Assembly (NCBI GenBank): GCA_902536065.1
Contig: CACAVZ010000005.1
Location: 1-64,000, forward strand
Origin: an uncultured Synechococcaceae cyanobacterium
Lineage (GTDB): Bacteria > Cyanobacteriota > Cyanobacteriia > PCC-6307 > Cyanobiaceae
Length of the DNA stretch: 64,000 bases
Direction: 5' to 3'
Each line of letters starts with the position of its first letter. The stretch's first letter is position 1. Position numbers and translations under genes: made by a program. Positions 19,042-21,676 of the stretch are shown here, one piece after another. Below the pieces are notes generated by a model. The model made no database searches and was not told the DNA's origin. It saw only the letters and a list, made by a program, of their open reading frames with translations.

Positions 19042-19245
19042 ATGGCATACATAGAATGGGACTATACAGTAATAACAAGTATGGTAGAAAAACAAGGGTG
19101 GGATTTACCTGATCGTGAATCGGAAGAATGGAATAAATTTAACGATGAATTAGGAGAAAAAATGAGAGGTGTTGGACTTATTTTCGAAAAATATTGTAAA
19201 TTTACTCCCGACATAGGAGAAGGAGTTCATCTTCTAGATGACTGA
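19042..19245 (+). CDS. Small conserved hypothetical protein
   Basis: A 67-residue acidic, soluble protein rich in Trp and Glu (MAYIEWDYTVITSMVEKQGWDLP ... EKYCKFTPDIGEGVHLLDD). No signal peptide or membrane segment. I do not recognise a characterised family. It is divergent from trmH and followed by a stem-loop. The codon use and composition look like those of the neighbouring genes. Confidence 0.6.
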   Translation: MAYIEWDYTVITSMVEKQGWDLPDRESEEWNKFNDELGEKMRGVGLIFEKYCKFTPDIGEGVHLLDD

Positions 19246-19314: not shown

Positions 19315-19422
19315 TTCACAAAATTAGAACTGGCAATTATTAAGGCTTTATAAAGGTTGTACTCTAAAAAGAAATTTTTATTCCACAAAAACGTTATTTA
19401 ATTTCTATATTTGAATAAAAAT

Positions 19423-19815
19423 ATGAAAAATAAATTAACCTTTTTATTCGATGGTGGATGTCCACTTTGTTTGAGAGAAACAAATTTTCTAAAAAAAAGA
19501 GATACCTTAAATCAAATTACATTTATAGATATTAATAATAAGGATTATGATCAAAGTCTTTTTAATGACATCTCATATTCAGAAGCTATGTCAAACCTGC
19601 ATGGGATTATTGAAAATGGTGAAATTATTAGGGGACTAGATGTACTTGCATATTCTTATGAATTGGTTGGTTTAGCTTGGGTTTATTATCCCTTGAAGAT
19701 TAAGCTCTTATCTCCATTGTTGAGATTGGTTTACAGATATTGGGCAAAATATAGACTTCAAATTACAGGTAGATCCGATATTGAAAAACTTTGTACCTCA
19801 GAATGTGAACAATAA
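19423..19815 (+). CDS. DCC-family thiol-disulfide oxidoreductase (DUF393)
   Basis: A 130-residue protein of the DCC family. The FDGGCPLCLRE motif near the N-terminus carries the family CxxC and is followed by thioredoxin-like sequence (FIDINNKDYD...). The SNLHGIIENGEIIRGLDVLAYSYELVGLAWVYYPLKI segment is also typical. ATG at 19423 is preferred over the TTG four codons upstream. A redox role is inferred from the fold; no substrate is known. It is the first gene of a four-gene run ending in a photolyase-like protein (2-nt gap to the next gene). Confidence 0.82.
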   Translation: MKNKLTFLFDGGCPLCLRETNFLKKRDTLNQITFIDINNKDYDQSLFNDISYSEAMSNLHGIIENGEIIRGLDVLAYSYELVGLAWVYYPLKIKLLSPLLRLVYRYWAKYRLQITGRSDIEKLCTSECEQ

Positions 19816-19817
19816 AT

Positions 19818-20054
19818 ATGGAAAATATCGATATAGACAGAATAATAGAAATGTGTTGGGAAGATAGAACACCCTTTGAAGCTATCGAGTATCAATTTGG
19901 TTTAAAAGAGGAAGATGCAATAAAAATTATGCGTCAAAATCTTAAATCCAAATCTTTCAAAGTCTGGAGAAAGAGAGTTTCGGGAAGAAATACAAAACAT
20001 ATGGCCCTTAAAGATTCAACTAGATTTAAATCTACTCATAAAAGAAAATTATAA
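19818..20054 (+). CDS. TIGR03643 family protein
   Basis: A 78-residue basic protein with the conserved IDRIIEMCWEDRTPFEAIEYQFGL ... VIKIMR-type N-terminus and KSFKVWRKRVSGRNTKH C-terminus of the TIGR03643 family. The N-terminal part resembles a short helix-turn-helix and the tail is strongly basic, so nucleic-acid binding is possible but unproven. Members of this family are often encoded beside cryptochrome/photolyase-related genes, and this one lies 131 nt before such a gene. Confidence 0.8.
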   Translation: MENIDIDRIIEMCWEDRTPFEAIEYQFGLKEEDAIKIMRQNLKSKSFKVWRKRVSGRNTKHMALKDSTRFKSTHKRKL

Positions 20055-20057
20055 ATT

Positions 20058-20189
20058 TTGAAAAATCTTTCTACTAAAACTTGTCCTGTTTGTAATAGGC
20101 CGTTTGAGTGGCGTAAAAAATGGAAAAACTGTTGGGATGATGTTATCTACTGTTCAAAAAGATGCAGTAACAGGAAGTCGCAAAGATGA
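20058..20189 (+). CDS. DUF2256 Cys-rich mini-protein
   Basis: A 43-residue ORF starting at TTG 3 nt after the previous stop. It contains [18 protein letters not shown] and YCSKRCS, which is the DUF2256 pattern of two CxxC/CxxxC pairs likely to bind a metal (zinc). Its stop TGA overlaps the ATG of the photolyase-like gene (ATGA), which indicates translational coupling. It is too short for a default ORF cutoff. DUF2256 proteins often neighbour photolyase-related genes. Function is unknown. Confidence 0.8.
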
Positions 20190-21676
20190 AACAAGTATCA
20201 ATTATTTTCCCGAATCAACTTTTTAGAGAAAGCCCAATCTTAAAAATCAAATGTGAAGTTTTGATTTTGGAAGACTCATTATTTTTTGGAAATGATAAAT
20301 TTCATAAATTAATTAACCATAAAAATAAGTTAGTTTTTCATAGAGCATCTATGCTCGCTTATAAAAATTATTTAGAAATATCTGGCTTTAAAGTTTTATA
20401 TATCGAAAACAAGAATAATGTTTCTACACTTGATTACTTATCGGAATTTATTAAAAATAAATATCAGAAAATAAATCTCATTGATCCTAATGATTATTTA
20501 ATAATGAAGAGGATTAATAATTTTGTTGAAAGTAATAATTTAGCTTTAAATATTTTGCCTTCTCCTATGTTTATGAGCAGTAAAGATTTAAAAGATTTAT
20601 TTGCATCAAATGCAAAAAAACCTCTTATGGGGAGATTTTATGAGAATCAAAGAAAGAGCCAAAAGATATTAGTTAATCCTGATGATTCACCTGAAGGTGG
20701 TAAATGGAGTTTCGATGAAATGAACAGAAAAAAAATACCTAAAAAAATAAATATACCCGATAAACCTAAATTACAAAAAAATAAATTTGTAGTTAATGCA
20801 GAAAGATCATTAGCCAATTTTGATATTGAGTTTATTGGAGAAAGTAATAACTTCTTATATCCAACTAATTTTGAAGAGGCAGATGAATGGTTAAATGATT
20901 TTTTTAAACATAAATTTTTCTTATTTGGAGATTATGAGGATGCTATTTCTAAAGAAAATTCTTTTTTATGGCACAGTTTACTTTCTCCTCTTTTAAATAG
21001 CGGCTTATTAACCCCAGATGTAGTAGTAAATAAAGCATTACTTTTTGCAAAAAATAATAATGTTCCTATTAACTCTTTAGAGGGTTTTATTCGTCAAATT
21101 ATTGGATGGAGAGAATTTATTTGCCTCGTCTATAAAAAGTACGGAACAAAGATGCGAAATAGTAATTTTTGGAATTTTGAAGATAAGCCAATTCCAAAAT
21201 CTTTTTATCAAGGAAATACAGGAATTGAACCAGTAGACGTTGTAATAAAAAATATTATTAAATTTGGTTATTGTCATCATATTGAGCGGCTAATGATTGT
21301 TGGTAACTTTATGCTTCTATGTAGAATTCACCCCAACCAAGTTTATAAATGGTTTATGGAAATGTTTATTGATTCCTATGATTGGGTTATGGTCCCAAAT
21401 GTTTACGGAATGAGTCAGTTTAGTGATGGTGGTATCTTTTCAACAAAGCCATATATATCAAGCTCTAATTATGTAAAAAAAATGTCTAATTTTAAAAGTG
21501 GCCCATGGTGTGAAATATGGGATGGCTTATTTTGGAAATTTATTAAAGATAATGAAAGCTTTTTTAGAAAGCAATATCGTCTGGCAATGTTAACGAGAAA
21601 TCTCGATAAAATGTCAGAGGAAAAATTAAATAATCACTTAAAAACGGCCGATAAATTTTTAAGAGATATTCAATAA
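20186..21676 (+). CDS. Photolyase/cryptochrome-related protein (FeS-BCP/DPRP family)
   Basis: A 496-residue flavoprotein of the bacterial cryptochrome/(6-4) photolyase-related group. The N-terminal Rossmann domain ([13 protein letters not shown]) is followed by the all-helical FAD domain. Conserved blocks include [48 protein letters not shown] and [11 protein letters not shown]. Characterised members bind FAD and a 4Fe-4S cluster held by four cysteines. Here the segment after KKMSNF lacks the expected CxxC pair and keeps only C442 (GPWCEIW). Light-dependent DNA repair is the likely role; photoreception is the alternative. Confidence 0.85.

Follow-up and report, generated by a model that had tools for sequence, protein, structure and literature searches.

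In characterised photolyases, reduced flavin adenine dinucleotide (FAD) gives an electron to the lesion under light, and these enzymes are generally regarded as working unaided. Photolyase genes have been described in short cyanobacterial operons, namely the mutT-phrB operon in Prochlorococcus MED4 and the Synechococcus PCC 7335 PHR operon (PMC2955971, PMC9649867), and the Pseudomonas LitR/PplR light regulons hold phrB, folE, cryB and genes of unknown function, with the unannotated PME7070 and cryB forming a two-gene light-responsive unit (PMC9758184). Here we describe a row of four genes in which a photolyase gene likewise stands in a short cyanobacterial operon-like array, found in a window of 64,000 nucleotides (the whole stretch analysed) from contig CACAVZ010000005.1 of an uncultured Synechococcaceae cyanobacterium. 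It differs from the MED4 and PCC 7335 operons, which contain other photolyase genes whose partners are a nudix hydrolase and a second photolyase, respectively. We tentatively favour the reading that this row is a likely operon of a predicted (6-4)-group photolyase and two small proteins, DUF2805 and DUF2256, that would serve photolyases as helpers by binding nucleic acid or nucleoprotein, and not as makers of the enzyme's cofactors.

The row opens with a DCC1-like thiol-disulfide oxidoreductase gene (PF04134; 19423..19815, with a further in-frame TTG at 19411), followed by a TIGR03643/DUF2805 gene (PF10985; 19818..20054) for a basic-tailed protein of 78 aa and isoelectric point (pI) 9.9, possibly of helix-turn-helix type, and by a DUF2256 gene (PF10013; 20058..20189) with a TTG start, whose 43-aa product, also of pI 9.9, is a CxxC...CxxxC treble-clef zinc-knuckle candidate. 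The last gene (20186..21676) encodes a DPRP photolyase of the Phr2/PromaPL type (PF04244 plus PF03441). All four lie on the + strand at spacings of 2, 3 and -4 nt, the last being an ATGA overlap of the DUF2256 stop and the photolyase start at 20186..20189. The order, strand, spacings and overlap given in a preliminary description of this DNA proved exact to the base, and the families that it named score over their curated cut-offs.

The source genome (G000) comprises 36 contigs and 1.19 Mb at 70.7% completeness. The named loci nearest to the row are 28 Prochlorococcus-type loci from single-cell genomes, metagenome-assembled genomes (MAGs) and isolates (L031-L058; DUF2805 identity 92-99%), from which we infer that the window derives from a high-light-type Prochlorococcus. 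The order DCC-DUF2805-DUF2256-DPRP is kept in 28/28 of these loci and in four of four further Prochlorococcus genomes (L214-L217), and the ATGA overlap is conserved in 26/26 (L031-L058 minus L036 and L040). Ratios of nonsynonymous to synonymous change (dN/dS) over the window and 26 loci (27 sequences; 26 for DPRP) were 0.058 for DUF2805, 0.149 for DUF2256, 0.152 for DPRP and 0.173 for DCC; because this indicates purifying selection, the 43-aa DUF2256 frame is a real gene. A promoter and terminator pattern scan of the row stayed at or below chance level; the spacing fits a single operon, and co-transcription of the four genes is likely. The DUF2256 start lies 3 bases past the DUF2805 stop in the same reading frame, and a 123-aa DUF2805-DUF2256 fusion (P0156, Prochlorococcus-like, 13 member sequences listed) apparently arose by loss of the stop codon between the two. 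The photolyase is split into several frames in L083 (8419-9838) and L040 (8456-9857), through either real decay or assembly error, with DUF2805 and DUF2256 still open; in L040 the DCC frame is broken as well. L036, the 3.4 kb contig JABSSB010000278.1, is assigned to a Rhodobacteraceae MAG although its four-gene row is Prochlorococcus-like, and this contig is probably mis-binned.

The photolyase itself is of a known kind: by its sequence it is the Phr2 of marine picocyanobacteria, of the prokaryotic (6-4)-group type. It matches PF04244 (7.8e-44, 150.6 bits) in its N-terminal part and PF03441, FAD_binding_7 (7.1e-8, 32.5 bits), in its C-terminal part, both over cut-off, which is the architecture of the DPRP/PhrB group and of PhrB, CryB and FeS-BCP (PDB 4dja, 3zxs, 8ijy); its best PDB matches are prokaryotic (6-4) photolyases, with more than 430 residues aligned to PhrB and relatives. 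The four cysteines that hold the [4Fe-4S] cluster of the FeS-BCP subtype are lost, as they are in Phr2/PromaPL (PMC9426592, PMC9178010). These iron-sulfur (Fe-S) cysteine columns are lost in 27 high-light-type Prochlorococcus rows (the window included) and in L063, L066, L068, L072, L077 and L100, so that 25/58 DPRP rows keep them and 33/58 do not (the 58 rows include four genes in duplicate). A tree of 39 DPRP rows places the Fe-S-less rows in one 16-row clade (support 100/100; its rows L191, L211, L212 and L214-L217 were left out of the cysteine check), joining picocyanobacteria with five Bacteroidota, and the window photolyase groups with the Fe-S-less picocyanobacterial DPRP proteins. Marine picocyanobacterial Phr2 has been equated with PromaPL (PMC9426592), which was placed among the prokaryotic 6-4 photolyases (PMC9178010). 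Disruption of phr2 in Synechococcus RS9916 lowered survival of ultraviolet (UV)-B about 1000-fold, and in white light E. coli given RS9916 phr2 survived UV-B nearly tenfold better; the same authors suggest that Fe-S-less Phr2 may act on cyclobutane pyrimidine dimers (PMC9426592). For the window photolyase, membership of the (6-4) group is predicted from its sequence, and it may repair (6-4) photoproducts. No clear diel pattern was seen for PMM0425, given as the ortholog in Prochlorococcus of a photolyase relative that is itself uncharacterised (PMC3441193); we infer that PMM0425 is this photolyase gene, and 'light-linked', as the row had been called, is therefore to be taken as light-using. 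The portions consulted of the Phr2/PromaPL and (6-4) photolyase literature do not mention DUF2256 or DUF2805 partners.

The preliminary description also held that TIGR03643 and DUF2256 proteins recur beside photolyase-related genes. We surveyed 194 Cyanobacteriota, 178 Bacteroidota and 200 Pseudomonadota (572 genomes), setting aside the DUF2256 matches of the Bacteroidota genomes G324 (partial) and G253 (under cut-off); the DUF2256 matches of the cyanobacterial G002 and G175 contain an internal stop. DPRP, DUF2256 and DUF2805 were found in 58, 89 and 38 Cyanobacteriota, 56, 55 and 49 Bacteroidota, and 38, 36 and 12 Pseudomonadota; DPRP occurred together with DUF2256 in 55, 52 and 31 genomes and with DUF2805 in 25, 42 and 11, in the same order of phyla. 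Overall, 152 genomes have DPRP, 180 have DUF2256 and 138 have both, with odds ratios of 55, 516 and 139 in Cyanobacteriota, Bacteroidota and Pseudomonadota. Each of the 42 genomes with DUF2256 but no DPRP has a photolyase of the PF00875 type, which was present in 17 of 38 tested genomes that lack both genes (Cyanobacteriota 1/4; Bacteroidota 13/17, one under cut-off; Pseudomonadota 3/17). DUF2805 occurs in 99 genomes, 78 of them with DPRP, and 16/16 tested others have PF00875 (G253, G263, G267, G412 and G497 were left out of this test). Thus none of the 180 DUF2256 genomes and none of the 94 tested DUF2805 genomes lacks a photolyase-family gene; routine presence without one had been named as the outcome that would undo the proposal. 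When the survey started instead from DUF2805 loci (L059-L110, 49 of 52 used), DPRP was found in 45/49 genomes. The control genome of Synechococcus elongatus has both DPRP and DUF2256. Both small families accompany DPRP with and without the Fe-S cysteines alike. Within cyanobacterial DUF2256 carriers, DUF2805 was present in 25/55 genomes with DPRP and 13/34 without (p 0.52, not associated), so DUF2805 may follow photolyases generally, or lineage, and not DPRP alone. Genomes within a phylum are related and the p values consequently overstate independence, which weakens the case; replication across three phyla is the safer argument.

Physical linkage adds to this co-occurrence. Among genomes with both genes, DPRP and DUF2256 lie within 5 kb of each other in 6/55 Cyanobacteriota, 25/52 Bacteroidota and 14/31 Pseudomonadota, and DPRP and DUF2805 do so in 10/25, 10/42 and 0/11; by simple arithmetic, a 10 kb span makes up some 0.26% of a genome of 3.8 Mb, so that about 0.1 such cases would be expected by chance among the 52 Bacteroidota. 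The claimed recurrence thus stands in three phyla, with frequent adjacency in Bacteroidota and, for DUF2256, in Pseudomonadota, where a photolyase-family open reading frame (ORF) lies within 5 kb of 20/36 DUF2256 genes (15 of 31 windows read, the ORF in L159 being a fragment, and five by coordinates). Among loci L059-L110, 23/52 have a photolyase-family ORF within 6 kb, with short FAD-binding-only proteins included, and 25/52 have that or DUF2256. Gene orders vary: DUF2256-CRY-DPRP-CRY-DUF2805 in Polaribacter (L079, L105, L108), and CRY-DUF2256-CRY-DPRP-CRY-DUF2805 in L094. Three cyanobacteria belonging to a single family (L218-L220) have DUF2805-DPRP, and on an Acinetobacter plasmid TIGR03643 faces a DPRP-DUF2256 pair. 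Bacteroidota clusters also contain SDR, TspO, GTP cyclohydrolase I, glutathione peroxidase and DUF2867 genes. Pterin and folate synthesis starts with GTP cyclohydrolase I, and its presence possibly reflects antenna supply. Photolyase-family genes with folE and SDR likewise occur together in the Pseudomonas LitR/PplR regulons (PMC9758184).

The two small proteins differ in how clearly their folds can be predicted. DUF2256 matches PF10013 (3e-18) and has CxxC and CxxxC motifs with a WRKKW core, and WRKKW...W..V.YCS is invariant across 20 aligned sequences. Its AlphaFold2 (AF2) model (pLDDT 85.6) most resembles gyrase-bound YacG (probability 0.92, E 0.24) and the FCS zinc finger; none of these folds is significant by E-value, which may reflect the length of 43 residues. 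We predict from the model a zinc knuckle of the treble-clef type, which resembles YacG and FCS-type fingers (TRASH clan) in fold alone and differs from them by its own core; the YacG gyrase inhibitor profile PF03884 reaches 12 bits on DUF2256, under its cut-off of 25.5. Relatives such as FCS, L24e and YacG bind RNA, ribosomal RNA or protein. DUF2805 matches PF10985 (9.7e-32) and TIGR03643 (7.4e-36), and its AF2 model has four helices (pLDDT 77.8) that gave weak hits and no strong match in a fold search; 14/52 relatives weakly match NirdL-like_HTH (best E 8e-4) and four match Sigma70_r4. It may thus be a helix-turn-helix protein, though less surely than DUF2256 is a zinc knuckle. Over 49 cross-lineage pairs from 13 loci, mean local-alignment identity was 62% for DUF2805, 58% for DUF2256 and 38% for DPRP, and mean aligned-column identity was 0.58, 0.49 and 0.36, with 0.58 in the best 60-column stretch of DPRP. 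DUF2805 is about as constrained as the photolyase core, as would be in keeping with a partner no less conserved than that, for example nucleic acid or core machinery. A divergent DUF2805 group (about 69-77 bits) occurs in the Bacteroidota genomes G263, G267, G310, G326, G384, G396, G412 and G416, of which G263, G267 and G412 have no DPRP.

The first gene of the row stands apart from the other three. The DCC protein matches PF04134 (1.3e-23, 84.8 bits) with its CxxC, CPLC, within DGGCPLC, and is in the row in 28/28 of L031-L058, but it is missing from the related rows L063, L083 and L191 and is tied to the row in Prochlorococcus only. Its proposed membership of the module is therefore not supported; in Prochlorococcus it may be a redox guard or simply a local passenger. 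Outside this genus DCC lies beside or near DUF2805 or DUF2256 at L005 (4553-5302), L177 (13868-15348) and L196, too few to judge.

In the reading that we favour, the photolyase would repair its lesion by light-driven electron transfer from reduced FAD, and DUF2805 and DUF2256, bound to nucleic acid or nucleoprotein, would aid it in reaching or working on UV lesions. The helpers would act ahead of electron transfer, in giving access to the lesion or in handing it over, and their service would extend to more than one type of photolyase. One concrete form, a conjecture, is that they clear or mark RNA polymerase that is blocked; in E. coli, excision repair of (6-4) lesions is inhibited by the polymerase that has stalled there (PMC11536166). 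The DNA binding and helper role of both proteins, and how they might work, are proposed from their folds and gene context. If DUF2256 and DUF2805 are general photolyase partners, photoreactivation would have accessory factors in the cell, and families present in about a third (180, DUF2256) and a sixth (99, DUF2805) of the 572 genomes would gain a testable function, with small targets of 43 and 78 aa and clear conserved residues. On this reading the two small proteins would help cells repair sunlight damage. The photolyase and both families are already known, and the cross-phylum module appears undescribed in the literature searched: searches by family, accession and locus names tied neither family to photolyases, although genome-context databases may show the link. 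As far as that literature shows, the new element is the strength of the link between the small families and photolyases.

Several observations weigh against this reading. Fourteen of the 152 DPRP genomes lack DUF2256, and of the control genomes, E. coli (PF00875 present, DPRP absent) and Haloferax (DPRP present), neither has DUF2256 or DUF2805; because Synechococcus Phr2 works in E. coli, no need for helpers is shown. The small genes are often far from DPRP, which argues against a tight module, and are not near photolyases in most sampled cyanobacteria: none was seen near 20/20 cyanobacterial DUF2805 loci picked away from DPRP (L002-L021) or near 18/20 DUF2256 loci. Of nine plasmid loci, three (L022, L023, L029) have a photolyase-family gene in the stretch read and six (Vibrio europaeus, Pantoea, Nostoc, Pseudoalteromonas CF6-2, Agrobacterium, Spirosoma) do not. 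The family matches and fold hits behind the helix-turn-helix call are weak, and non-helix-turn-helix families also match DUF2805 relatives (BNIP2 in 10/52). Finally, DUF2805 is carried by 79 uncultivated IMG/VR viral contigs (L257-L335), often large and some longer than 170 kb, and DPRP was not seen in 78 of these in the stretches read and a pattern-limited scan. The earlier claim of one functional system is thus partly supported, by the co-occurrence of DUF2256, DUF2805 and photolyases; DCC, the frequent distance from DPRP and the viral DUF2805 speak against it.

The same facts can be read otherwise. DUF2805 and DUF2256 could regulate a light or photo-oxidative stress response, with DUF2805 binding promoters, DUF2256 modulating it and photolyases forming one of several target sets. 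We consider this somewhat unlikely, although it would account for the helix-turn-helix signals, the SDR, TspO, GTP cyclohydrolase I and glutathione peroxidase genes shared by Bacteroidota clusters, the lipocalin, cyclopropane-fatty-acid synthase and DUF1365 genes near the Acinetobacter plasmid genes, and the light-induced Pseudomonas sets with phrB, folE and cryB (PMC9758184); phage carriage would fit as well. DUF2805 is divergent from the photolyase gene in L067, L088 and L101, as a regulator might be, but on one strand with it in the other 20/23 loci with a near photolyase-family ORF, and a column identity equal to that of the photolyase's best 60 columns would be unexpected of a promoter-specific regulator. 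A purely ecological link, in which sunlit aerobic bacteria keep all these genes and clustering follows from co-regulation or co-transfer, seems to us unlikely. The distance between the genes in many genomes agrees with it, as do the other enzymes in Bacteroidota clusters, the lack of association between DPRP and DUF2805 in cyanobacterial DUF2256 carriers and the joint absence of DUF2256, DUF2805, DPRP and PF00875 from G114, G141 and G165, of the window's family; low-light Prochlorococcus without any photolyase has also been reported (PMC9426592). Such a link does not readily explain why 0/180 DUF2256 genomes lack a photolyase-family gene, why adjacency recurs across differing orders and orientations, or why a DUF2805-DUF2256 fusion is on record.

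The preliminary description had offered cofactor maturation as a possibility, beside accessory DNA binding. In a fuller form of the maturation reading, DUF2256 would deliver a metal or Fe-S cluster and DCC keep thiols, jointly loading the photolyase cofactors. The four cysteines of DUF2256, the CxxC of DCC and the gene order agree with it, but DUF2256 stands beside a photolyase without any Fe-S cysteine, as 33/58 DPRP rows are, DCC is missing from related rows, and the Synechococcus Phr2 relative is active in E. coli (PMC9426592), whose control genome has neither small family. We regard maturation as highly improbable, and nucleic-acid-binding helpers are likelier than cofactor makers. A bolder variant of the helper reading, which we think distinctly improbable, makes DUF2805 and DUF2256 the halves of a general bacterial photorepair-coupling factor on UV-blocked nucleoprotein: helix-turn-helix protein and zinc knuckle would dock, for example at stalled RNA polymerase, and pass the lesion to any photolyase, and large marine phages would have acquired the DUF2805 half, either to cooperate with the photolyases or polymerase of the host or to redirect them.

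Viral DUF2805 kept without an adjoining photolyase favours a DNA or transcription function over a dedicated photolyase subunit. Its identity is 47-73% in 77 contigs, with two short matches at 85%; examples are L277 (8001-8231), L306 and L283. A comparison of one viral DUF2805 with named phage records gave no match. Viral scans found DPRP in six contigs and PF00875-type photolyases in none of the contig pieces read, and the sole DUF2805 contig with DPRP or DUF2256 in the stretch read is L318 (the same contig as L252 and L339). Recurrent neighbours are a flavodoxin-like oxidoreductase cluster (31/79 loci) and a thymidylate synthase cluster (19/79), and 8/20 neighbour proteins tried match PHROGs, with DNA ligase, RNA ligase, tail fibre, GroEL and DNA methyltransferase families among them. 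DUF2256 occurs in 36 viral contigs (L221-L256), many with isolate-genome names and possibly prophages or flanks; in the stretches read, L252 is the only one of these to hold DPRP and DUF2805 too.

Just upstream of the row in the window, a 67-aa open frame on the same strand (19042-19245) has no Pfam match over cut-off. A domain architecture DUF2805_zf-NADH-PPase_NUDIX is on record (PMC6856373), and nudC adjoins the DPRP-DUF2256-TIGR03643 genes of the Acinetobacter plasmid NZ_CP015616.1 (L022).

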